A DNA stretch of 23,275 nucleotides from a virus: the IMG/VR virus record IMGVR_UViG_3300008050_000332, positions 1-23,275 of that record; one strand, written 5' to 3'. Position numbers and translations under genes: made by a program. This document shows positions 1 through 13,586 of this stretch, in pieces. Position 1 is the stretch's first letter. The number at the start of each line of letters is the position of its first letter. The notes beneath the pieces were generated by a model. It saw only the letters and a list, made by a program, of their open reading frames with translations. It was not told where the DNA came from and searched no databases.

Positions 1-3000
1 CCCTATCTGTCGGATTCTAAAGGGAGAGGAGTCGGCGGGGTCGGGCTCGGTTGGTTGAGGCTTGCGCCTCGCCATCGCATCGCGGGCTTCGCGGAATTGA
101 TGGTTCAGTTCCTCGGCTTCATTGACTGCCTCACCTTGAAGGTTGCCATGATTGGATATGATTTCTTCTCCGGCTATGGGGGCTACCTCACTAATTGCCC
201 ACGCTCCCGGCGGTCGGACTTGATGCACTTCCCACCCCCTACGGTCCATCGCCACATGACGTGCAATGTAAATTTCATCAGGGTTGTTATGATACCTACT
301 GATAGGCCAAGCCCCCGGCAACGAGTTGTCCAAGTCACCCGTGGACTTCTTTGAATATTTCAGGTCCTGCTCATGGCGAACTATCTCGGCCTCAAGCCGC
401 TGGATCATTTGCTGACGCTCCTCCTCGGCTTCCTCCGTTGGAGCCGGGGCCGCTCTCGCAATGGCCACACCCTCGCGTAGCTGGTCAACGTAGGCGGTAT
501 CGGCTTTCTCGGTCTTCTTTCGCCGGGCTGACATCGCGGACTTGTGCTCCACCAGACGGCGGCCCAGGTTGATCACCCTCAAGATTTCATTGTCGCTAAA
601 CTTTTCGACGGCCTCGGAAGTCATCCCCTTGTCCTTGCCGAATTGCTTGGTGAACCGGGCGAACCGCTCCACGATTGAGCGGTCATAGTTCTCGGGGTTC
701 TCCGATACCTTGGCCACGAACTCCTTGGATATTGTCAACAGGTCCCCGGCGTAGTTTGGATTCTCCCGTAGAATCTCCTGCCATATCTCATGGCCTTCCG
801 GGTTTGCCTCGCTCGGTCCAAAGCGATCTATCACGCGGAGGAAGAACTTGTTCGCCTGGCCCCCCACGGCAAACTCGGCCCCGTGATGCCCGAACGTCTC
901 GTGAAGGAAAGTTTTTACCGCGTGGTCCGAGTTGTAAATATCGTTGGCGTGAAGATAGATTGTTTTCGTGTTAGGGGCATATGCCCCGGCGAGCTCGGCC
1001 CCTCTGTTGAATTGGTGGGCGAGGTCATCCCTGACCTGCATATCCTCAACCTGATTCTCGTCCAAGTGGTTGTCGAAGATCACCACTTTTGGAGCATCGC
1101 TCCCCATCTTATCCAATTGCGGGGCTATTGCCTCGCGTACCTGCTCCCTGGTCAATGACTTGGGCTTCCCCGTCAGCCCGTACTGAGGAGCCAATCGACC
1201 CGTGGCCGAAGTGATGCGGCCATCGCTGACTTCCTTCATCGACTTGGACAGGTCCCGGTTGTCGCTCGCTTGCTTCTGATCCAGCCCCGCCTTGATCTGC
1301 ATGATGGCTTCGCGGACCACCGGGTTCTTGGTGTTGATGGCTTCCTTATCCAAGTCCTCGATCAAGTCGGCTTGGTCATGCGCCGCGTAGCTGTTCGACA
1401 AGTTGCTGAAGTCAACGTTCTTGTAGGTGGCAACCGTACCCATCCCGCCGCCAACCACCGCGCCGAGAGCAAAACTCTTCAAGACGTCTTCGCTCACCTC
1501 ACGCTCGGGGTCGTACCCCATAAAGTAGCTGGCCACCGTGTTGGTCAATGCGGTTTGAGCCGCTTCGGTCATGCCTTCGCCTAGCGGCATCAATGCTAAA
1601 TTCTCAACAAGGTCCTTGACCTTCCTACTCCTGAACTTGCCTCGTGAACCGCTCGGGCCTTTCAGTTTGCCGAACATGAACTTGTCCATTGCGAACTCAA
1701 GCAAGGCGTTGGGCATGTTTGCGGCTCCCACCCACATACTGGCCCGGCGAAGCTCGAACTCGTTCAGCTCGCCGTCACCATCCTCGTCCCACTTCTCCAC
1801 GAACTCAGGGGCCAGCGTCCCGGCCTCGGCCATGCTCAATACGTCTTGCACCCCTTCGCTGTAGATTCGAGCCGGGGCAATTAGGTAAATACCTAAACCA
1901 CCAGTTGCCGCAGCGGCTGCCATGTCGATGCCAACGTTGGTAAACGTCCTAGATACCTGCCCCATGAAACCCTCGGGGTCCAAGGGAGCATTGTACTCCG
2001 CTTGCACTTTGGCAGACTTCCTTAAGTTTTTGGCTGCTCGATGCGTGGTGTTCCCACCAACCGTAAGCTCCCATTCCGGCGGGATGAGGTCGATTATGTC
2101 TGCCGCCACATTCAAAGTGTCGGTGGTTATTGCGCTGGCTCCACCAGCCACAAAGTCTTCCGGCCAAGTTGATCCCGCCAATTCACTTAGCGCTCGGGCC
2201 GCCGTGTGCCCAAAATCCTTTCTACCCTGTTTCTTCCCGGTGACCGACACGGCCTCACCAATCTCGGGCAAGCGTTGCAGTTCGTATCTCTTGCTGTCAC
2301 CGAAATCATGAACCTTCACAACCTTCAAGTGTTGATCCTCCCAACCGCGAGGGACCCGCCCAAGGTCATCGCTATCGACAAGGTTACCCTCGTCCAAGTC
2401 TTCTTCAGGTAGGTCCAGCGTTATGGTATTGGTTTTGTTCGCAACCCCGCCGCTTTCCTTGAACCATACCTTGTCCCGGCCAGGATGTTGCTCGACGTCG
2501 ATGACTTCAACTGTCTTGCCGTCCAACCTGGGCGGGTTCATGCCAGCACCTAGATGAAGATCGCCGCCAATGATATGCTTGTTTCGATCCTGCCAAATCC
2601 ACCCAGCATCAGGGGGCCTCGTTCTCTCCGATTTGGACGGGGGGGGTTGGATCAGCTCCCGGTTCTGATTCAAGAGGTCACGTAACTCGTCACCGCTGAG
2701 AAACTGCTTGTGATAGGTAGGGTGATCCTGGTCCTTGCCTACGCTACCCCAATGAAACTTGTTATCTTCCTCAAGCAGATGGGGTTCGTCACCAGCAAGC
2801 CACGCTTTCCGATAGTCAAATTTATCAAGAGGATTATCGGGGTTTTTTTCACCCGGACCACCAAGCAGGTCACGCTTCCACGCCTGAACGGATGGATTCG
2901 ACCGCCACCATTGCTGAAAACTTTCCTCTTGAGCAGGTGATAAAGCTACTCTTTCCCTTACGGGCTTGAATGTTGATGGTAGCGATGGATCGTCTTCATC

Positions 3001-3033
3001 GTCCCCACTTAAAAAAAGATTTAGGTTGGCCAT
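1..3033 (-). CDS. Very large virion/ejection-type protein with EF-hand loop and HExxGHxG motif (partial, C-terminus beyond window)
   Basis: The frame is open for 1011 codons from the ATG at 3033 to base 1 with no stop, so the C-terminus is missing. Residue 416 starts a textbook EF-hand calcium loop (DEDGDGELNEFE, 416-427). Residues 486-493 (EGMTEAAQ) followed by the Gly-rich hydrophobic stretch SFALGAVVGGGMG (520-532) resemble a pattern common in large internal proteins of podoviruses. Residues 711-718 read HETFGHHG, an HExxGHxG motif like that of metallopeptidase-like domains in phage polyvalent proteins; the second His is at +5, so this is not canonical HExxH. Residues about 880-905 look like a charged coiled coil. 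The start lies 6 nt after the upstream stop and has no clear Shine-Dalgarno, suggesting coupling. The likely role is an internal protein ejected with the DNA; this is inference from motifs, size and position after two ejection-type genes. Confidence 0.8.
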   Translation of the reverse strand, partial: MANLNLFLSGDDEDDPSLPSTFKPVRERVALSPAQEESFQQWWRSNPSVQAWKRDLLGGPGEKNPDNPLDKFDYRKAWLAGDEPHLLEEDNKFHWGSVGKDQDHPTYHKQFLSGDELRDLLNQNRELIQPPPSKSERTRPPDAGWIWQDRNKHIIGGDLHLGAGMNPPRLDGKTVEVIDVEQHPGRDKVWFKESGGVANKTNTITLDLPEEDLDEGNLVDSDDLGRVPRGWEDQHLKVVKVHDFGDSKRYELQRLPEIGEAVSVTGKKQGRKDFGHTAARALSELAGSTWPEDFVAGGASAITTDTLNVAADIIDLIPPEWELTVGGNTTHRAAKNLRKSAKVQAEYNAPLDPEGFMGQVSRTFTNVGIDMAAAAATGGLGIYLIAPARIYSEGVQDVLSMAEAGTLAPEFVEKWDEDGDGELNEFELRRASMWVGAANMPNALLEFAMDKFMFGKLKGPSGSRGKFRSRKVKDLVENLALMPLGEGMTEAAQTALTNTVASYFMGYDPEREVSEDVLKSFALGAVVGGGMGTVATYKNVDFSNLSNSYAAHDQADLIEDLDKEAINTKNPVVREAIMQIKAGLDQKQASDNRDLSKSMKEVSDGRITSATGRLAPQYGLTGKPKSLTREQVREAIAPQLDKMGSDAPKVVIFDNHLDENQVEDMQVRDDLAHQFNRGAELAGAYAPNTKTIYLHANDIYNSDHAVKTFLHETFGHHGAEFAVGGQANKFFLRVIDRFGPSEANPEGHEIWQEILRENPNYAGDLLTISKEFVAKVSENPENYDRSIVERFARFTKQFGKDKGMTSEAVEKFSDNEILRVINLGRRLVEHKSAMSARRKKTEKADTAYVDQLREGVAIARAAPAPTEEAEEERQQMIQRLEAEIVRHEQDLKYSKKSTGDLDNSLPGAWPISRYHNNPDEIYIARHVAMDRRGWEVHQVRPPGAWAISEVAPIAGEEIISNHGNLQGEAVNEAEELNHQFREARDAMARRKPQPTEPDPADSSPFRIRQIG

Positions 3034-3039
3034 AAGTCA

Positions 3040-4200
3040 TCAAAAAAGAGGGTCCTGCACGCCCATGCTTTGAAACCATTCTTTGCGCTGTTGGTTGTTA
3101 GCTTGGGGAGTGAATAACGTATCCCCAATCGCCTGCAAATCGGAGTAGGCTTTGTCTCTATCCATGCCGTCCACTTCCTGCCCGTATGCAATGACCGCAA
3201 AAGCCGATATGAATTGTTTCTGTAAAGCAGGGTTTGGTAGTAAATTCTTCGTGCGGTCCGCAAGCTGTAACCTTTCTTGCTGCCTTACCAAAGTAGGATT
3301 CGTTTCCATAAGCTGGTCCCGATCCTCTCCACCCAATTGTAAACCGGGTTGCAGATACTGGCCCATTTGATTTGCCGCCCCGAGAAAATTGCCAGATTTT
3401 ACTTGTGCTATGACATCATCTTGATGCTGGACCGAACTGGTTTTGACGGGTACTGGGGTAGGTTCTACAACTCTCATTTGATTACCGAACGTAAATACCG
3501 TTGCTCCTGTGTCAGGATCGCGAACGGTATTTAGTTCAACCCCCGTGTCCATGAGATCCATTTTTTCCATTTGGTCAAACGTCAACTCCGTTCCACGAAA
3601 GGCCAATTGACCAACGGGAGAATTGAAGAACTTTACCGCAGCCTTTTCCTCATCCGTTGCTTGCTTGTCCCAGTCACCCTTTTTCTTACCCTTTTGGCTC
3701 AAGAAGTAGTTCTTGTTCTTCACCACGTCATGGGCATCAGCTATTTGTGCTTGCAGGGCTTGAGTGAATGTACCTTGCCGTTTCGCATCGGCCTTAAATG
3801 CCTCCGATTGAGCTCCCCTTAATGCCGCTATCGCATCTGTTTGCTGTTGTGATATATCAAGCTGCCTGTCTCTATAATCGGCTGTGTCCTGCTCGGCCCA
3901 CCGCTTGTACATCATGGGCACCTGCGCCAGCACCCCCTCGGCCTCCGCTCTGCTATAGGCGTCTATGTCCGAGTCATCCAGCTCAAGGTCATCCTTGAAC
4001 AGCTTGAGTGCCTTGCGGGCCTTGTCCCCGAGGTTCTTCTGAACCGCCTTGGTCTTCATCACCTCGCCGCCTTGGGCCCCCATTTGCGCCAACGCCCCGC
4101 CTATGCTTTGACCCGCCTGAGCCCCTAGCCGCCAATCGATTGGTTGAACGATGCCCGAGCCGGAGCCGGGCTTTCCGAAGAATGTGTTTTGTCTACTCAT
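3040..4200 (-). CDS. Putative internal virion / DNA ejection protein (386 aa)
   Basis: I chose the ATG at 4200 because GAAGGA lies 6 nt upstream (4207-4212); the earlier in-frame start at 4221 has no such site and overlaps the preceding gene. The protein begins MSRQNTFFGKPGSGSG and has a Gly/Ala/Gln-rich N-terminal third (LGAQAGQSIGGALAQMGAQG), then a long charged helical region rich in Gln and Lys (about 80-180), then a mixed C-terminal half. No signal peptide, membrane segment or enzyme motif is visible. Low-complexity Gly/Ala start plus long helices, placed between another such protein and the giant left-end gene, is typical of podovirus internal core or ejection proteins. The family itself is not recognised by a specific motif. 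Confidence 0.8.
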   Translation of the reverse strand: MSRQNTFFGKPGSGSGIVQPIDWRLGAQAGQSIGGALAQMGAQGGEVMKTKAVQKNLGDKARKALKLFKDDLELDDSDIDAYSRAEAEGVLAQVPMMYKRWAEQDTADYRDRQLDISQQQTDAIAALRGAQSEAFKADAKRQGTFTQALQAQIADAHDVVKNKNYFLSQKGKKKGDWDKQATDEEKAAVKFFNSPVGQLAFRGTELTFDQMEKMDLMDTGVELNTVRDPDTGATVFTFGNQMRVVEPTPVPVKTSSVQHQDDVIAQVKSGNFLGAANQMGQYLQPGLQLGGEDRDQLMETNPTLVRQQERLQLADRTKNLLPNPALQKQFISAFAVIAYGQEVDGMDRDKAYSDLQAIGDTLFTPQANNQQRKEWFQSMGVQDPLF

Positions 4201-4210
4201 GATATTTCCT

Positions 4211-5221
4211 TCAACCACCACCCATTGCCTTGCCCGTGGCCCAACCGCTGCCTAGCGATCCAAGCCCACTCATTAACCCGCCCGTTATTGCTGCCTTGTT
4301 TGCGGCTGAAGCCATGCGGGCATTCATTAAGTTCGATTGATTGCTACCCGCCAACGCTCCGGCGTATGCGCTTTCGGGATTAAATAATTGCGGCCCGCTT
4401 TGCAAAGCGAAGCCAGCCGATCCCATTTGTTGCGCAACTTGACCCGGTACGCGGGCGCTTCGCCCCGTGAGGGCCAAGAACGGATCGACCGAGCTGGTCT
4501 GCCCCAAAATTTGCGAAGCTCGCTGTATTCGTTGCTCCTCGGCCTGTCTGCCCGCTCCCATACGCGCCATCGTTTCTTCTATCATGGCGGGTTGACTGCG
4601 TTGGTACGCCGTGCCCCGAGCGGATTGCCCGGCTCTCACGCTCTCGCTGATTCCAGCCAGCTCTTCCTGCGTAAGTCCTTGCCCCGCATCCAGTCCTTCC
4701 TGAGCCTTGCGTTGCAACCCGAGCCGTAAGTTTTCGCTACCCGGATCAGCCGCTCGTTGGGCCTCCACGAATTGCGGGCCAAGTTCGCGAAGCATGTCGA
4801 TCTCCCCGGTGGTTGCCTCTTTTTGTTGCCGGGAAAGGGAAGGAGCAATGTATTTTTCGTAAAGCGAAAGCAGACCCTGATCACCTACGCCTCTCTCTCC
4901 AGTCAACGCATGAGACAGCATCTCTTGTTCAGCTCGGGCATACGCTGGTCGGCCATACACTTGCGACGTTTCGCTGCGATACAAATCCGGGGCAAGTTTT
5001 AGTTGTGCCTCAAGTGTCTCCTTAGTCTCCTTGGCATAGTCGCGTGGTGGAGGAGCTTCCACGTCCCCCTTCTTGTAGCTCGGCACGCCACCACTTGACG
5101 GCTTACCCGATCCACCTACTGCCTTAAGCAGTCGCTCCTCGTTTGGGTTGACGTACGCCAACCGCTCGCCCGGAGGCGCTGCCTTGTTTAAATTATCAGC
5201 GGCTTTTCTTAAATTATTCAT
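4211..5221 (-). CDS. Putative internal virion / DNA ejection protein, Ala/Gly/Gln-rich (336 aa)
   Basis: It begins MNNLRKAADNLNKAAPPGER. It is helical, rich in Ala, Gln, Glu and Arg, with many short amphipathic stretches (for example residues about 95-235). It ends in a Gly-rich tail (GGLMSGLGSLGSGWATGKAMGGG region) that could insert in or cross a membrane. This composition is common in podovirus ejection proteins that leave the capsid with the DNA, but no catalytic motif is visible. The start codon overlaps the end of the upstream gene by 8 nt. The downstream gene starts 10 nt after its stop, with a Shine-Dalgarno overlapping this gene's end. Function is inferred from composition and position only. 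Confidence 0.78.
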   Translation of the reverse strand: MNNLRKAADNLNKAAPPGERLAYVNPNEERLLKAVGGSGKPSSGGVPSYKKGDVEAPPPRDYAKETKETLEAQLKLAPDLYRSETSQVYGRPAYARAEQEMLSHALTGERGVGDQGLLSLYEKYIAPSLSRQQKEATTGEIDMLRELGPQFVEAQRAADPGSENLRLGLQRKAQEGLDAGQGLTQEELAGISESVRAGQSARGTAYQRSQPAMIEETMARMGAGRQAEEQRIQRASQILGQTSSVDPFLALTGRSARVPGQVAQQMGSAGFALQSGPQLFNPESAYAGALAGSNQSNLMNARMASAANKAAITGGLMSGLGSLGSGWATGKAMGGG

Positions 5222-5597
5222 GACACACTTTCTTAAACATCCGTTCCCAACTTAAAGTTTTGAGCTCCGATTCTCCACCGGGCTTGATTCTACGGAACAT
5301 TACGCGAGGTAATGGTTCCAAACTATTGAACATCGCCATTAAACCGCCATCCCCGGCAACCCATCGGGCATACCAGCAGTCGGGGTTCTTCGGCCACCAT
5401 TGGCCGCTCGGGTCCTTGTTCGACTCAATCGGTTTCACCATCATGAAAAACTTGGAACAACTAATGACCAGTCCCCCGATCAGGTAGTTGTTCATCTCAT
5501 CATAAAACTTCTTCGGGTCCTCGTAGACAGCGGCAATACGCTCAATCGGGGCTTGCCCAATCAGCTTGTCGCTTATCGCTGAAGTGATTCCACCCAT
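5214..5597 (-). CDS. Uncharacterised phage protein (127 aa)
   Basis: The start ATG overlaps the spike gene stop by one base (TAATG) and the end overlaps the next gene by 8 nt. The N-terminus (MGGITSAISDKLIG) could be an amphipathic helix. The core (SCSKFFMMVKPIESNKDP, then WYARWVAGDGG and PLPRVMFRRIKPGG) has alternating beta-strand-like stretches rich in aromatics, followed by a basic tail. Similar-looking short proteins occur beside tail and ejection genes in environmental podoviruses, and some internal proteins there have a GNAT-like fold, but I see no diagnostic acetyl-CoA motif. Function unknown; a minor virion protein is the best guess from its position. Confidence 0.75.
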   Translation of the reverse strand: MGGITSAISDKLIGQAPIERIAAVYEDPKKFYDEMNNYLIGGLVISCSKFFMMVKPIESNKDPSGQWWPKNPDCWYARWVAGDGGLMAMFNSLEPLPRVMFRRIKPGGESELKTLSWERMFKKVCHE

Positions 5598-6916
5598 TAC
5601 CCCGCAGCCTCCAATGCCGTCACCTTGGCCGAGAGCTCTTGAATCGCCTTCACCAATGGTACTATCAACGCTCCGTAGGCAATGTTCTGCTTGCCGTTTG
5701 GATCAATCTTCCAGCCACGCCATTCCTTGATGCCGTGTTCATCCATCACCGCCTTCACCTCTTGGGCTATCATTCCATGATGGGTTTCTTTATCGTCTGC
5801 TGGTTTTTTATCGGGCTTCTCTTTGGTGAAACGATAATCTTTTATTTCGTCGGGCCAGTTGAAAGGGTTGATCTTTTTATAGGTCACCGTCCTGAGTGCG
5901 TTCAGGAAGTCCAAGCCGAGCTGATTGTTTTTAACGCTTTTCTTTATTCGCGCATCCGATGATACCGTGGAAATCGACGTATCTTCGCATCGCAAATCCG
6001 TTACCGAAGTGTTGCCAAGCATTACTTGGTTTGATGCCGTGGTAACCACGCCATACCCTACAGCCGTGGTGTTCTGATACGCAGCTTCACCGCCCGATGA
6101 CATGGCCTGAGAGCCTAATGCCGTGTTGTTGCTGCCTAAGAGGTGGTATCCGGCATTGTCACCACAGTATACGTTGTCTGCCCCTGTTATATTAGTGTAT
6201 CCAGCCTGTGACCCGACGTAGGTATTGTCATCGCCGGAGGTGGTGGCTTGTCCAGCGTTATACCCCACGCCCGTGTTGAGGTCGGCTGTGTTCTTGGTAA
6301 GAGCCGATTGCCCCACGGCCACTACGCCGTCAACAGCCGCCGCCGATGCTCCCAAGGCAAGGTCACCAACAGCGACGTTGTAAGATGAATTGGTTGTGAG
6401 TAGCTTGCCCGCCAATGCCCCCAGAAAAGTATTCATTTTTCCCGTGGTTAAAGCCCCACCCGTAGAATGCCCCACCGCTGTGTTGGAAAAGGCTTCGGTG
6501 CTTGCTCCAGTCCCCGAACAAACTCCCAAAGAGCCTGTACCAACCGCCACGTTTTGAAGTGGTGAGCCCGTGGATAACCCCATTGCCCCCTCCCCAATTG
6601 CCACGTTCATTTGCCCGGTGGTGTTTGTCTTGAAGACATCCTTGCCTACCGCCACGTTGCTATCTCCATCCACGTGAGCCATCCCGGCGTTCTGCCCGAG
6701 GAACACGTTGTCGCTCCCGGTGGTCACAGCCGTACCCGCATTATCCCCCAGGGCAACGTTGTCCGTACCGCTGGTCAGACTATCCAAGGCTGAATCACCT
6801 AGAGCCACTTCACTTAAATCACCCGATCCAATCGTGGCGTTTGTTAAGAAGTTGTTTAATTTAGTATGGCTTACGGTGTCCCCGCTCGCCCAAGTTACTC
6901 CCGGTGTGATCTTCAT
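5597..6916 (-). CDS. Tail spike/fibre with YadA-head-like repeats and C-terminal S74 self-cleaving chaperone (439 aa)
   Basis: Residues about 35-300 carry repeated short strands of the type NVAVG/NTALG followed by A-G, spaced irregularly, as in YadA-head-like trimeric left-handed beta-rolls. Residue 320 begins SDARIKKSV, followed by LGLDFLNALRTVTYKK and HHGMIAQEV: the peptidase S74 intramolecular chaperone family. The Ser-Lys pair expected for autocleavage is present at S320 and K325 (spacing +5, as in K1F endosialidase). The C-terminal about 120 residues should therefore trimerise and fold the shaft and then be cut off before S320. The N-terminus (MKITPGVTWASGDTVSHTKLN) resembles virion-attachment segments of fibres. 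No glycosidase motif is seen, so it probably binds rather than degrades its receptor. The start overlaps the nozzle gene stop by 1 nt. Confidence 0.92.
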   Translation of the reverse strand: MKITPGVTWASGDTVSHTKLNNFLTNATIGSGDLSEVALGDSALDSLTSGTDNVALGDNAGTAVTTGSDNVFLGQNAGMAHVDGDSNVAVGKDVFKTNTTGQMNVAIGEGAMGLSTGSPLQNVAVGTGSLGVCSGTGASTEAFSNTAVGHSTGGALTTGKMNTFLGALAGKLLTTNSSYNVAVGDLALGASAAAVDGVVAVGQSALTKNTADLNTGVGYNAGQATTSGDDNTYVGSQAGYTNITGADNVYCGDNAGYHLLGSNNTALGSQAMSSGGEAAYQNTTAVGYGVVTTASNQVMLGNTSVTDLRCEDTSISTVSSDARIKKSVKNNQLGLDFLNALRTVTYKKINPFNWPDEIKDYRFTKEKPDKKPADDKETHHGMIAQEVKAVMDEHGIKEWRGWKIDPNGKQNIAYGALIVPLVKAIQELSAKVTALEAAG

Positions 6917-8790
6917 TACTCGAAGGTGGTTAATAGTTTATCGGATTGAATGGCTTCCAGCTTGGTCCTTCGCAGATCGGGCTGGCCTCCGTTGCAAATA
7001 AAAGTCAAGTCGATGGCATAGGCCCGCTTCTTCAGCCCGAAACGGATCAGCTTGTCCTCGGTCCCCGTTATTGCCGCGCTGTAATGAGAAGCCGCTGTTG
7101 TGTCCGGGTCCTGCGTGGTGACGTCTATGTTGTAAGTGGTGGTCACACCCGAAGCGTTCAAGGCAATGCCCGCGCTTCCGTAAAGCCATCGCTTCTCGCC
7201 TAGATCATTAAGCGTGTAGGCCCTTGTCCGGGCTTTCCAACTGACGTTCGCGGTCGTAACGCTACCGCCGTTGCCGTACTCGTCAATTCCCGTGGCGTTC
7301 TCTTCCATGACCAACAGCTTGCCGCTTTCGCAAACCACGAAGAGCCGTTGTTCATTGCCGTACACGCCCACCACGAAATCATCCACGTAATCAGGAAGCG
7401 AATCGACGCTTTCCCATGCCTTGAGCGATACGTTGTAAACCAGTATCTTCGATGCCTTGGCTTCGCCCGTCCCTTGAATAGGGACCGCCAACCAATAACG
7501 ATTCGACCAAAATATTGCCGAGCTTTCTTTCTTGGCGGCGGTGAAATCTATCGTTTGAATGACGTCATCTATCGGCTGACTCAACGGATTGTCCGATATC
7601 CGCATGGCCGTGACTGGTGTTCCCACCCGGTCCTGCCCCCTGATCCCGAAGTCTATGCTGTACACTCCCGAGTCGGACAGGAAGAACACGGCCCCGCCCA
7701 CCGATATTGCCGACTTGCGTGAGGCGCACCCCATTTGCCTGGATACTTCCGTGAGCGTGGTGTTCGTCAAGTTGCCGATGCTCGTCTGCAACATGATGCT
7801 GTGACGCTTGAGGACCAGCATCCCGTCATCCATCACGGGCAACATCGACACGATACCGTCCGACGTCCCCGTATTGAACTTAAAGTAATTGGTGGCCGCA
7901 AAACTGTAATCGCTGAACACGTCGCTGTACTGGACCTCGTCGCGATTGGTTGGCACGCACAATCGATTACGAGAATACACCGCGAAATCAGCCGGGGGCA
8001 ATTCACTCGACTCGGTCACGGCCAGCCCGCCGGACGTGTACCCGCTGTTTCCGCTGGACCCGTCCAAGCTGAAAGTGTTGGTGGTGATTGTGGTGATGTA
8101 CCAAGTGTTGTTCGCGTTGGTATTTCCTCCCACGTCCGTAATGGTTATCAAGTCACCTGTTGAGTATCCGTGATTTGTTGCCGTTATCACGATGGGTGAG
8201 GCATTTGTGGCAGCCGTTATCGTCCGGCTCTCGGGCCGTTTGAAAGTTCCCGGCGTTGCGATGTCTCCATCAAATACGAGAGGGTACTTGCCGAGTTCCA
8301 CTACCGTGGACCCCGTGTCCAAATCAAATGGCAAGCGTAACCCCGCCCCCCTGAATAAGTACATGTTGTCATATGCCTGTACTAATTGGCTGCTCGCTCC
8401 GGCTGTCTCGACCACACCGCCCCTAGTTTGATAAGCGACTTCCGTTGTTTGGATGGACCCCGTGTTTGAAGCATCCACGAAATAAGCTTTCTGATCAGCC
8501 GCCATGCATACGTAATCCACGTCATCGGGATGTTGGAACCGAGTGGTTGTGAATATCTCGGCTTCGGCCAAAAGGTTACTGTTGCTTGAAACCCGCTTGA
8601 TCCCTTTGCGCCCTCGGGCAATTCCAATTGACTCGCTTAACCTGCAATTCTCCGAGGCTTGCAGGAACCCCGGTTTCAACAGCGTGGGGTTGGTGTGACT
8701 ATCCATGCCTAGAAACCCGTTGTCACCAGCCACGGCCATAGGCGTGTTGAGCGGCTTTGTTGTAGTGGCTGGCTCGTAGCGAGTGCTCAT
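6916..8790 (-). CDS. Putative tail nozzle / tail tubular protein with FCCH-like insertion (624 aa)
   Basis: A long beta-rich protein without signal peptide or membrane segment. It contains repeated blade-like strands (for example ADFAVYSRNRLCVPTN, MLVLKRHSIMLQTS, AVFFLSDSGVYSIDFG, AIFWSNRYWLAVPIQG), as expected for the beta-propeller-like nozzle proteins that close short tails. Residues about 189-257 form a separate module (RTITAATNASPIVITATNHG, then GDLITI and FSLDGSSG) of the type often annotated in phages as a ubiquitin-activating-E1 FCCH-like domain; here it is a small beta-barrel, not an enzyme. ATG overlaps the previous stop as ATGA. Gene order (lysis-like genes, nozzle, spike, ejection proteins) fits a podovirus tail module. 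Assignment is from family features read by eye. Confidence 0.8.
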   Translation of the reverse strand: MSTRYEPATTTKPLNTPMAVAGDNGFLGMDSHTNPTLLKPGFLQASENCRLSESIGIARGRKGIKRVSSNSNLLAEAEIFTTTRFQHPDDVDYVCMAADQKAYFVDASNTGSIQTTEVAYQTRGGVVETAGASSQLVQAYDNMYLFRGAGLRLPFDLDTGSTVVELGKYPLVFDGDIATPGTFKRPESRTITAATNASPIVITATNHGYSTGDLITITDVGGNTNANNTWYITTITTNTFSLDGSSGNSGYTSGGLAVTESSELPPADFAVYSRNRLCVPTNRDEVQYSDVFSDYSFAATNYFKFNTGTSDGIVSMLPVMDDGMLVLKRHSIMLQTSIGNLTNTTLTEVSRQMGCASRKSAISVGGAVFFLSDSGVYSIDFGIRGQDRVGTPVTAMRISDNPLSQPIDDVIQTIDFTAAKKESSAIFWSNRYWLAVPIQGTGEAKASKILVYNVSLKAWESVDSLPDYVDDFVVGVYGNEQRLFVVCESGKLLVMEENATGIDEYGNGGSVTTANVSWKARTRAYTLNDLGEKRWLYGSAGIALNASGVTTTYNIDVTTQDPDTTAASHYSAAITGTEDKLIRFGLKKRAYAIDLTFICNGGQPDLRRTKLEAIQSDKLLTTFE

Positions 8791-9870: not shown

Positions 9871-10100
9871 TCGGGTGACCATTCCGAAGTTGAAAGTTCA
9901 TCTGAGATTTGACTCCAATTGTAAGCAGTTTTTCCATATAGGAATCGTGGTTTCGATCCTTCGTATTTCACTACTCCACGGGACTGATCTAAATTCCATA
10001 AAACGAATGCGCCTCCACCATTAAGGACTTGCTGGATGTTAGCTTCCGTCATTTCGGAAACTTCAGCTTTTGCTAGGATCACGTATTTTCTTTCGTTCAT
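9867..10100 (-). CDS. Uncharacterised small protein (77 aa)
   Basis: Its start overlaps the lectin gene stop (ATGA at 10097-10100), and its stop overlaps the next ATG in the same way. The sequence is soluble and mixed alpha/beta: MNERKYVILAKAEVSEM, then NGGGAFVLWNLDQSRGVVKYEGSKPRF, with several aromatic residues and no Cys. No motif is recognised. Because it is coupled to the LamG-lectin gene upstream, it could be an assembly partner of that virion protein. Confidence 0.65.
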   Translation of the reverse strand: MNERKYVILAKAEVSEMTEANIQQVLNGGGAFVLWNLDQSRGVVKYEGSKPRFLYGKTAYNWSQISDELSTSEWSPE

Positions 10101-10897
10101 ACGATGTCTCCATCTCCTCCGTTGTAAATATCCGCAATATCGTCCGCACTTAATTCGTCACCATAAAAGCGGACGTCATCGATTCGCCCTGCGGCGTTAT
10201 TGGCATATGAAGCCGAAAATGCCGTAAGTAGTCCTATCGAATCGTTTGACGTAGTGTTTTTTACAGATGTCGCACCAGTAGCGCTATACAGAATAGGGTC
10301 TGAATCAGTCCCTTTTCTTCCGACGTACAATTTTATAACATTACTGCCATCCCATGCGGTAGCTATAAAGTACCAGTTGTTGATGGTCAGCGCGTTGGTT
10401 GATGTCGCTGAAATCCACCCACTTGGGTGTTTAACTTGTGTGAATTTAAAATAGTTATCATCCGCATCCGTTACACCACTCCAACTTAGCATTGGCCCCG
10501 GACTTGAAAGGCCAATGCTCGTATCGATTGACCATGCGGTGCTATAGTAAGTTCCCTTATTGTTACGAGTGGGGTAAAACCACCCGGTCATAGTATAAGC
10601 GGCGTTGTTGAAATTGAATTCGTCGGCAACGCGCCATGAATCTAAATAACCATCACCTTGACCAGCATCCCCGAAAAGAGCGTTTGATGTTCCTGCCCAA
10701 TCCGCTCCACCATTTGCATCAAGATGTGCCGTTCCAACGCTATCGGTTGCTTCCGATCCACTACCATCATCAAATTTCCACCAATGGATAATATCTGATT
10801 CACGAGTGACTTGCGGAGCCGCTGGCGTACCACCCAATGCGGCGGCATGTGCCCCCCCCCGTCCGTACCGACTAGTGACCCAAGGTAGCTTGAACAT
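10097..10897 (-). CDS. LamG/concanavalin-A-like lectin virion protein (266 aa)
   Basis: Residues about 35-260 match the layout of LamG/pentraxin-like jelly-roll domains. An opening strand (IIHWWKFDDGSGSEATDSVG) is followed by YTMTGWFYPTRNN, NNWYFIATAWDGSNVIKLYVG and a closing IDDVRFYGDELSADDIADIYNG, the usual terminal strand and helix of these domains. Such domains bind sugars or proteins and often sit on phage heads or tails. The first 34 residues (MFKLPWVTSRYGRGGAHAAAL...) look like a virion-anchoring tail. They are partly encoded by a run of nine G (10852-10860 on the complement), a possible slippage site. AGTAGG lies just upstream of the ATG. Decoration or receptor binding is inferred from the fold. 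Confidence 0.85.
   Translation of the reverse strand: MFKLPWVTSRYGRGGAHAAALGGTPAAPQVTRESDIIHWWKFDDGSGSEATDSVGTAHLDANGGADWAGTSNALFGDAGQGDGYLDSWRVADEFNFNNAAYTMTGWFYPTRNNKGTYYSTAWSIDTSIGLSSPGPMLSWSGVTDADDNYFKFTQVKHPSGWISATSTNALTINNWYFIATAWDGSNVIKLYVGRKGTDSDPILYSATGATSVKNTTSNDSIGLLTAFSASYANNAAGRIDDVRFYGDELSADDIADIYNGGDGDIV
10852..10860 (-). repeat. G9 homopolymer near the 5' end of the lectin gene
   Basis: Nine C on the given strand (nine G in the coding sense) fall in codons 13-16 of the lectin gene (Arg-Gly-Gly-Ala). A loss or gain of one base would shift the frame about 40 nt after the start and silence the protein. Whether the run varies in length cannot be seen from one sequence. Confidence 0.9.
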
Positions 10898-12569: not shown

Positions 12570-13586
12570 TTATATGACGCTGCCTAGGGCCCGTGGGTTC
12601 GCCACCGCTATGGTTAGCATGGCGTCCATCATGCCTCGGGCTCCACCACCACCGACGTCAGGGTAATCAAGCGCCTTGACCCCTTGCAGGATACGAAGCG
12701 TCACCGTGTCATCGGTTGGAATGAAGTATGCCCGGCGGCGGGTTCCAGCGTCAATCGCGGCCCCGTCACTTCTACCGAGGAAGAGATCAGGAATCACCGA
12801 CACTTCGCCATAATCGGAGATATAGCTGGTCACACTCAATCTGACAGAGGCTCCATCGCCCACCGGGTAACGGCGAGAATCGGCTGTGCTGCTGGTTTGA
12901 ACGAATGCGCTGATCGCGTTCATGGTGCTTGGCCCGGTGAACAAACGATAGCCTGACTTGGCTCCGCTGGCTTCGTAGATGGCTTGCAGAATAGTCTGCA
13001 TGTTCGCCTCGGTCAATGCCGCCGAAGAGGTGTCCGCTCGGCTGGCCGCCGTTGCGCGGTAAGCGCGTTTACCTGCATCCGTGAAAGGATGCGCGGTTGA
13101 AGTTGCTCCCGTCCATTGGCCCAAGCCCGTGAGCTTGCTGCCCGTGGTTCCACTTTGAGCGGCCCCACTTTGAGATGAACCGATTGCCGCCTCGATGTCG
13201 CGTTTGATTTCAAGAGCGGATCGGCTCTTGGCTTGGGCGATAAGGCTTGAGCCCGGTCCGGCCACGTCGATGAGCTCGGCCTGACGCGAAACTGCGTAAG
13301 GACGAACGAACTCCTCGAAGTAGTTGCCGAGACGTTCGCGACCGCTGAACTTGTCAACGTAATCGGCTGCGAACGAAAGGTCTGCGCCGTCCTCGAACTT
13401 GCCGCCGAACTGAACTTCGGTGAGATCGTCAACGAGCCATTCGGTGTTGGTTGCCTTGGGCGCTGGTCCTTGTGGGAACAGCGTGAACATTGGAGTTTCT
13501 TGCGGCTCCACGCGGCGCATCTGATTGCTCAAATCTTCGCGTGCCCCCCTAGCTGATACTATTTCGTCAATTGTTGCATTTGCCAT
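12570..13586 (-). CDS. Major capsid protein, SU10/DUF5309-like (338 aa)
   Basis: The N-terminal third (SARGAREDLSNQMRRVEPQE, then TPMFTLFPQG and the TNTEWLVDDL stretch, residues about 11-55) is the signature start of the DUF5309/SU10-type major capsid family: short helix, Pro-x-x-TP-hydrophobic, then an E/W-hydrophobic strand. The middle (IKRDIEAAIGSSQSG, then the ANMQTILQAIYEASGA spine helix) and C-terminal part (SYISDYGEVSVIPDLFLG, RAYFIPTDD) fit an HK97-fold A-domain. Position straight after the scaffold gene, a length typical for the family, and the hairpins behind it support the call. No protease gene is present and no cleavage site is evident. Confidence 0.9.
   Translation of the reverse strand: MANATIDEIVSARGAREDLSNQMRRVEPQETPMFTLFPQGPAPKATNTEWLVDDLTEVQFGGKFEDGADLSFAADYVDKFSGRERLGNYFEEFVRPYAVSRQAELIDVAGPGSSLIAQAKSRSALEIKRDIEAAIGSSQSGAAQSGTTGSKLTGLGQWTGATSTAHPFTDAGKRAYRATAASRADTSSAALTEANMQTILQAIYEASGAKSGYRLFTGPSTMNAISAFVQTSSTADSRRYPVGDGASVRLSVTSYISDYGEVSVIPDLFLGRSDGAAIDAGTRRRAYFIPTDDTVTLRILQGVKALDYPDVGGGGARGMMDAMLTIAVANPRALGSVI

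Follow-up and report, generated by a model that had tools for sequence, protein, structure and literature searches.

A zincin-like metallopeptidase domain and a canonical EF-hand loop in a putative phage ejection protein

The left-end gene and its neighbours

The window, meaning the whole stretch of DNA analysed here, is a viral fragment of 23,275 bases that makes up an entire record. Its left end carries one very long open reading frame (ORF) that runs off the end of the record, so the C-terminus of its protein is absent. The genes follow the order capsid, head closure, S74 spike, a 127-residue protein, a 336-residue protein, a 393-residue protein and finally the giant. The genes and products used in this analysis are as follows.

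1 to 3033, minus strand: left-end ORF of at least 1011 residues, stop-free, with an ATG start at 3033; putative ejection (internal virion) protein, at the visible end of the late block
3040 to 4221, minus strand: 393-residue neighbour without cysteine; second putative ejection protein, by gene order only
4211 to 5221, minus strand: 336-residue protein without cysteine; first putative ejection protein, at a position conserved in related phages
5597 to 6916, minus strand: tail spike with an S74 chaperone (Pfam Peptidase_S74, E 1.8e-11)
6916 to 8790, minus strand: tail or head-closure (Hc3-like) protein (PHROGs 3287 and 578; homologue in contig L007, E 2e-41)
12570 to 13586, minus strand: SU10-type major capsid protein (Pfam SU10_MCP, E 1.6e-36)

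For the genes upstream of the capsid (75 to 697 aa, 550 aa), many related contigs contain homologues. Homologues of the 336-residue protein occur in L053 (E 5e-13) and in L078 (E 1e-6); behind each comes a single gene and then a large one (2009 and 984 aa), and the window order is partly matched by L053/L094 and L078/L095. By synteny, the left-end protein fills the last slot of a putative ejection-protein block. Its location in the virion, and its ejection, which a sequence-only reading of this DNA had assumed, are suggested by gene order only, because neither a whole-protein homologue nor a relative of the giant in 38 capsid-relative records was found.

The 2009-residue protein in the same slot (L094:2317-8343) has an HEVAHSLHD motif after a Gly-rich hydrophobic stretch. 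Its placement in the same zincin clade was rejected as unsupported (profile comparison E 0.5, probability 0.1%), and it serves as a parallel only. Among 112 ORFs of at least 600 aa from related phages, four contain an HExxH or HExxxH string; three of these are antisense and the remaining one is L094. Judged from these sequences, zincin motifs are not general in the giant's gene slot.

Cysteine is wholly absent from the 1740 residues of the putative ejection proteins, whose three genes lie in a row (window 1-5221; 336, 393 and at least 1011 aa). Several other large proteins of the window have cysteine, while the capsid and scaffold-position proteins have none. The absence of cysteine in the putative ejection proteins is possibly linked to passage through the periplasm. 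Between the capsid and tail genes, window 10097-10897 encodes a concanavalin-like/laminin G domain protein (Pfam E 1.6e-11), perhaps a decoration or adhesion protein. In phage C75C1 (L091), a gene that spans the record start encodes a giant of 2772 aa with a stretch weakly like the 336-residue protein (domain E 0.01), as if it were a fusion of ejection proteins. A contig from another metagenome record (L003) has a 100% identical capsid protein and ends short of the left-end gene; the same phage seems to recur there.

The left-end protein is acidic (16.2% Asp+Glu) and has no close whole-length homologue in the viral contigs or genome contigs queried with it. Close homologues of residues 364-555 are likewise absent from the viral contigs, and residues 341-555 match phage records only at E 0.9 and 3. 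No relative of the giant appears by tblastn in 38 records (of 80 capsid-relative loci), the head-closure protein used as bait gives no match, and sequence comparison with solved structures returns no match to the left-end protein. The collection scans depend on a few exact 8-residue peptides, and distant relatives could therefore escape them. The N-terminus bears a motif that we take to be frequent in phage proteins; it is absent from the ORFs collected, where nine pattern matches are antisense or unrelated strings, and from the phage records. Pfam matches to DDE_Tnp_2, CHASE2 and Tla3_N were rejected as chance-level. Matches of residues 472-554 to phrog_6958 (virion structural, E 0.007) and phrog_263 (holin, E 0.05) were set aside, as they probably reflect the hydrophobic stretch.

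The zincin-like domain

Residues 592-832 correspond to the zincin-like metallopeptidase (MPTase) domain of phage polyvalent proteins. Its position and key residues are as follows.

538 to 1260, minus strand: zincin-like metallopeptidase domain of polyvalent proteins, residues 592-832, from profile, AlphaFold2 and Foldseek comparisons
880 to 903, minus strand: HETFGHHG active-site motif, residues 711-718 (H711, E712, H716); H, E, H and G invariant in 9/9 rows
721 to 723, minus strand: E771, candidate third metal ligand, conserved in 9/9 rows of alignment A1 and 43/44 rows of alignment A2

Pfam and PHROGs give nothing convincing over this region. A tblastn comparison with phage records yields one match, in which residues 597-780 align at 28% identity (E 5e-3) with a giant protein from Pseudoalteromonas phage vB_Pun_Y3. 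The Y3 domain and a direct plasmid search lead to further relatives encoded by phages and plasmids, some of which carry the annotations DdrB-like, DarB-like, LPD23 or LPD38. Alignment A1 comprises nine rows collected without use of the motif: six of eight phage records (a duplicate and an unannotated record being dropped) were taken in, together with two plasmid matches at E 0.1 and 1. Both histidines, the motif glutamate, the next glycine and a glutamate about 55 residues further on are invariant in all nine rows, and these correspond to H711, H716, E712, G718 and E771.

A scan of 2.9 million viral contigs with the DNA pattern HE[TA]xGHHG yields 82 loci, and 76 of them encode the zincin domain by the A1 profile, in ORFs with a median length of 1894 aa. 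Alignment A2 consists of the window sequence and 43 non-redundant members of 75, giving 44 rows. Loci picked by pattern share the motif by construction, and the third ligand is therefore the independent test; the E771 position is glutamate in 43 of the 44 rows. The likely metal ligands are thus H711, H716 and E771. The sequence-only reading had offered H716 or H717 beside H711, with a third ligand to be found; H711 and H716 proved to be conserved, whereas H717 was rejected as a ligand, its position in A1 being occupied by H, G, Y, N, K or A.

The domain assignment does not depend on the window sequence itself. Against a profile of 43 phage proteins built without it, residues 592-832 score 68 bits (E 6e-19), compared with 6 bits for the best of 1000 shuffles; a second profile, also rebuilt without the window sequence, gives 42 bits (E 1.4e-10) against a best of 4 bits in 1000 shuffles. 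No other window protein is among the five best. At the sequence level, the HExxGHxG string is far above chance, lying as it does within a domain of 240 residues that is recognised by a profile made without the left-end protein. The profile phrog_14770 matches 34 of the 44 domain members, and no Pfam model covers the domain.

AlphaFold2 run on A2 gives the domain a mean pLDDT of 76.7, with core blocks at 78-95. The model is ordered as a helix, a strand, helices, two strands, the HExxxH helix, further helices and the E771 helix (in model numbering, helix 65-82, strands 85-89, 119-122 and 127-131, and helices 138-150 and 201-214, with E771 on 201-214). The predicted layout shows HExxxH on one helix and the conserved glutamate on a later helix. 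The best solved structural neighbours are zincins of the lethal-factor and IrrE types at middling Z scores of 5-7. Foldseek against the PDB reaches a best E of 0.2, which is not significant, while against viral models large polyvalent proteins from phages are among its best matches, at E 1e-4 to 1e-3.

Membership of the left-end domain in the zincin-like MPTase HEXXXH set of polyvalent proteins is well supported: HExxxH (H711-E712-H716), the later-helix glutamate, the core fold and homology to members are all present. The likeness between HExxGH and this domain class, first noticed in the sequence-only reading, is borne out by profile, alignment and model alike. The zincin is the sole domain recognised in the visible 1011 residues; the polyvalent class means at least two distinct effector domains per chain, and the C-terminus lies beyond the contig.

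The EF-hand loop and its surroundings

The loop lies upstream of the zincin domain, between two hydrophobic segments.

1855 to 1956, minus strand: Ala/Gly-rich hydrophobic segment ahead of the EF loop, residues 360-393 (Kyte-Doolittle 19-residue peak 1.53 at 367-385)
1753 to 1788, minus strand: EF-hand loop DEDGDGELNEFE, residues 416-427, from pattern, Pfam EF-hand_1 (12.8 bits) and a low-confidence helix-loop-helix model
1426 to 1578, minus strand: EGMTEAAQ motif and Gly-rich hydrophobic segment past the EF loop, residues 486-536 (peak 1.43 at 517-535)

All ligand positions of a 12-residue EF loop are filled in DEDGDGELNEFE, and both this loop and the HETFGHHG string lie exactly where the sequence-only reading had placed them. 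A PROSITE-type EF-hand pattern is present one or more times in 0.65% of 20,000 shuffled versions of the left-end protein, and the strict form DxDxDGx[LIVM]xxx[DE] in 0.09% of 20,000. As a sequence, the loop is canonical and unlikely by chance. Pfam EF-hand models score it at 12-13 bits against cut-offs of about 25 (EF-hand_1, 12.8 against 25.4), and six other viral-contig proteins with EF matches likewise have single loops under the Pfam cut-off. EF-hands usually come in pairs; the one further match in this protein is a poorer PROSITE-type one at residue 212. Hydrophobic residues occupy the EF-helix positions that presumably require them (F411, V412, W415, L423, L428 and V435), while A431 and S432 fill two exit-helix positions that are usually hydrophobic.

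AlphaFold2 of residues 281-600 with three sequences has a mean pLDDT of 37, with the EF region at about 50-60. This low-confidence model has a helix at 409-415, the loop and a helix at 425-438, with the loop in the longest stretch above 50. A helix-loop-helix around 405-435, which the sequence-only reading had named as a check, is thus predicted, at that low confidence.

The loop appears to be private to this protein. The PROSITE-type EF loop occurs in none of 76 zincin-bearing ORFs (142,632 aa); since 0.4 would be expected by chance, this absence carries little statistical weight alone. It is also missing from 624 ORFs of at least 300 aa, on both strands, from related phages. In a weak alignment, the nearest relative of the region (L181) has a shorter D/G-rich loop at the EF place. 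Among the relatives examined, comparison of sequences points to a lineage-specific insert in the left-end protein. The conservation expected of the zincin histidines in homologues is seen, H711 and H716 being invariant in all nine A1 rows. The same expectation for the EF Asp and Glu residues fared differently: no relative examined has the loop, and no close full-length homologue was found for a fair comparison.

Residues 486-536 weakly match a segment upstream of the L181 zincin (E 0.014), and similar segments picked by motif occur in Y3 and L168. An expanded search with the L181 hydrophobic region retrieved itself alone. L173, L140 and others joined a Gly-rich profile at E of about 0.002 in an iterated search from motif-picked seeds. 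From these sequences, a Gly-rich hydrophobic segment as a shared domain is suggestive only.

EF loops in other phage proteins

A scan of viral contigs for the canonical EF loop gives at least 120 loci. The form DxDGDGxhxxxEF is found in at least 117 ORFs; among the matches listed, 95 are 100-199 aa long and 12 are at least 300 aa. Nine of the 12 large ORFs and one small ORF among the matches listed were classified. They include a DNA-ejection homologue (L246, phrog_598), one tape-measure-like and one virion structural protein, a weak tail-fibre match and one PHROG of unknown function, and the remainder are unmatched. EF loops are present in other virion-type proteins and are therefore not unique to the window. 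By the A1 and A2 profiles, none of the EF-loop loci among the matches listed has a zincin domain. Among the matches listed, the two occur in one protein only at the left end of the window, and this combination looks new.

The L246 protein (L246:5343-6515) gives another case of a calcium loop in a protein that is putatively ejected, here a single EF loop within a low-complexity linker. Several of the small EF-loop ORFs (100-199 aa) among the matches listed are alike (for example L249, L226 and L259), and the one small ORF tested (L249:9686-10153) has no PHROG match. No paper on an EF-hand in phage polyvalent or internal virion proteins was found in a literature whose subscription journals were mostly outside coverage. 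EF-hand-like phage lysins turn up in a broader search.

Relation to known systems

The main text of Iyer et al. 2017 (PMC5512222) describes the zincin fold in polyvalent proteins, including the HEXXXH set, and lists self-processing before packaging, processing after entry and attack on host proteins as roles. The left-end protein resembles the MPTases described there in its HExxxH helix, later-helix glutamate, three preceding strands and presence in a large late-region phage protein. It differs from that set, as described there, in having an EF loop and in that no further polyvalent domain was recognised within its 1011 visible residues; the terms EF-hand and calcium each occur 0 times in that main text.

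The Y3 giant (3421 aa, annotated as DdrB-like ParB) shares the zincin at 28% identity and an upstream Gly-rich EGTTE..Q segment. Unlike the left-end protein, it is three times the visible length and contains an LPD1 domain, HETIAHGG and no strict EF loop that was noted. The L246 DNA-ejection homologue resembles the left-end protein in being putatively ejected and in having just one canonical EF loop, and differs in its length (391 aa), its phrog_598 type, its lack of an HExxH string and its low-complexity setting.

Coliphage N4 virion RNA polymerase is an ejected giant with a zincin-type motif (PMC5512222, PMC12633501), a likeness in which the ejection of the window protein is putative. It has an HExxH rather than an HExxxH motif and carries an RNA polymerase, and the two proteins are compared by published description only. 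According to the main text of PMC5512222, the N4 protein contains an MPTase domain, enters the particle unprocessed and needs its MPTase-bearing region for encapsidation. The main text of PMC12633501, a preprint on the structure of the N4 polymerase, reports the HExxH motif and does not contain the word calcium. Sinorhizobium phage phiM5, whose gene order is broadly that of the window, also has three genes for internal virion proteins after its tail spike, and by annotation its proteins were detected in particles. They show no sequence match to the window proteins and no HExxxHxG or DxDxDG....[DE] string.

Proposed mechanism and alternatives

The favoured proposal, held with somewhat better than even confidence, is an ejected zincin protein of a short-tailed phage that acts on itself or on the host, with an EF loop that stiffens a hairpin. 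The phage would be short-tailed with a capsid of the SU10 type, and the left-end protein would be the largest of its ejection proteins and the last in the block; it would probably travel inside the head and leave with the DNA. H711, H716 and E771 would hold the metal, and E712 would act as the general base. The Ala/Gly-rich segments (about 367-385 and 517-535) would probably be placed in or near the envelope, where the EF loop between them would most likely bind one Ca2+ and stiffen the hairpin in calcium-rich surroundings. The zincin would cut either its own giant chain or a protein of the host, while entry is under way or once it is complete, and the EF loop would be a lineage-specific add-on outside it. 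Domain membership and ligand conservation are shown by the alignments and profiles; catalysis, substrate, membrane contact and calcium binding are inferred. Proteolysis by the left-end protein may not occur, because N4 virion RNA polymerase with its MPTase domain is described in the main text of PMC5512222 as packaged unprocessed.

This last point leads to a reading that is unlikely here, in which the zincin fold is a packaging or structural module that cleaves nothing, as may hold for the N4 HExxH region, and the EF hand is structural. Unprocessed packaging of the N4 protein and the need for its MPTase region in encapsidation, as given in that text, speak for it, whereas retention of the third ligand in all but one of 44 divergent rows, and of the motif in every one of the nine A1 rows, suggests selection for a metal site. 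A host-directed effector, which after entry would cleave a protein serving host defence or regulation and would not process itself, is a narrower form of the best explanation and has a similarly small chance of being right: such a role is among the options proposed for the domain class in the main text of PMC5512222, and the domain is frequent in large phage ORFs. It is extremely improbable that the metal serves another reaction, such as that of an alpha-ketoglutarate HExxH oxygenase. HExxH also occurs in radical-SAM-linked enzymes, according to the main text of PMC12633501, whereas the window protein has HExxxH plus a glutamate, and its nearest solved folds are proteases and IrrE.

The EF loop raises two further alternatives. 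It is doubtful that the match is a chance one in an acidic Gly-rich linker that binds nothing. The sub-cut-off Pfam scores, the acidic composition, A431 and S432 in the exit helix and the absence of the loop from the relatives examined are consistent with chance, but the rarity of the strict pattern in shuffles and the six residues that fit EF-helix positions argue against it. At the other extreme stands a calcium-gated protease, in which Ca2+ outside the cell or in the periplasm would load the EF hand and keep the zincin off until entry into the cytoplasm frees the Ca2+ and triggers self-cleavage. A canonical loop and a complete zincin site in one chain, with hydrophobic segments on both sides of the loop, are in its favour; about 285 residues between the loop and the zincin motif, the lack of the loop in all 76 zincin ORFs (with the small chance expectation given above) and the treatment of the EF region and the zincin as two separate models weigh against it, and such gating is quite improbable. 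Very improbable, too, is the broader idea that an EF hand, flanked by two segments that act on membranes, senses falling Ca2+ as the protein passes from the surroundings and periplasm to the cytoplasm and so times the cleavage of the protein itself or of a target. The favoured proposal of an ejected zincin protein with a stiffening EF loop amounts to a domain of known type, carried by a protein that is probably ejected, plus a lineage-specific EF insert.

Significance

The roles of ejected phage proteins in the envelope and cytoplasm, and the timing of their action, form a largely unexplained field. One such putative chain offers two point-testable sites here, a zincin site that is complete and a calcium loop of canonical form. 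Even if the EF loop is merely structural, the likely metal ligands are now fixed for a widespread unnamed phage domain.
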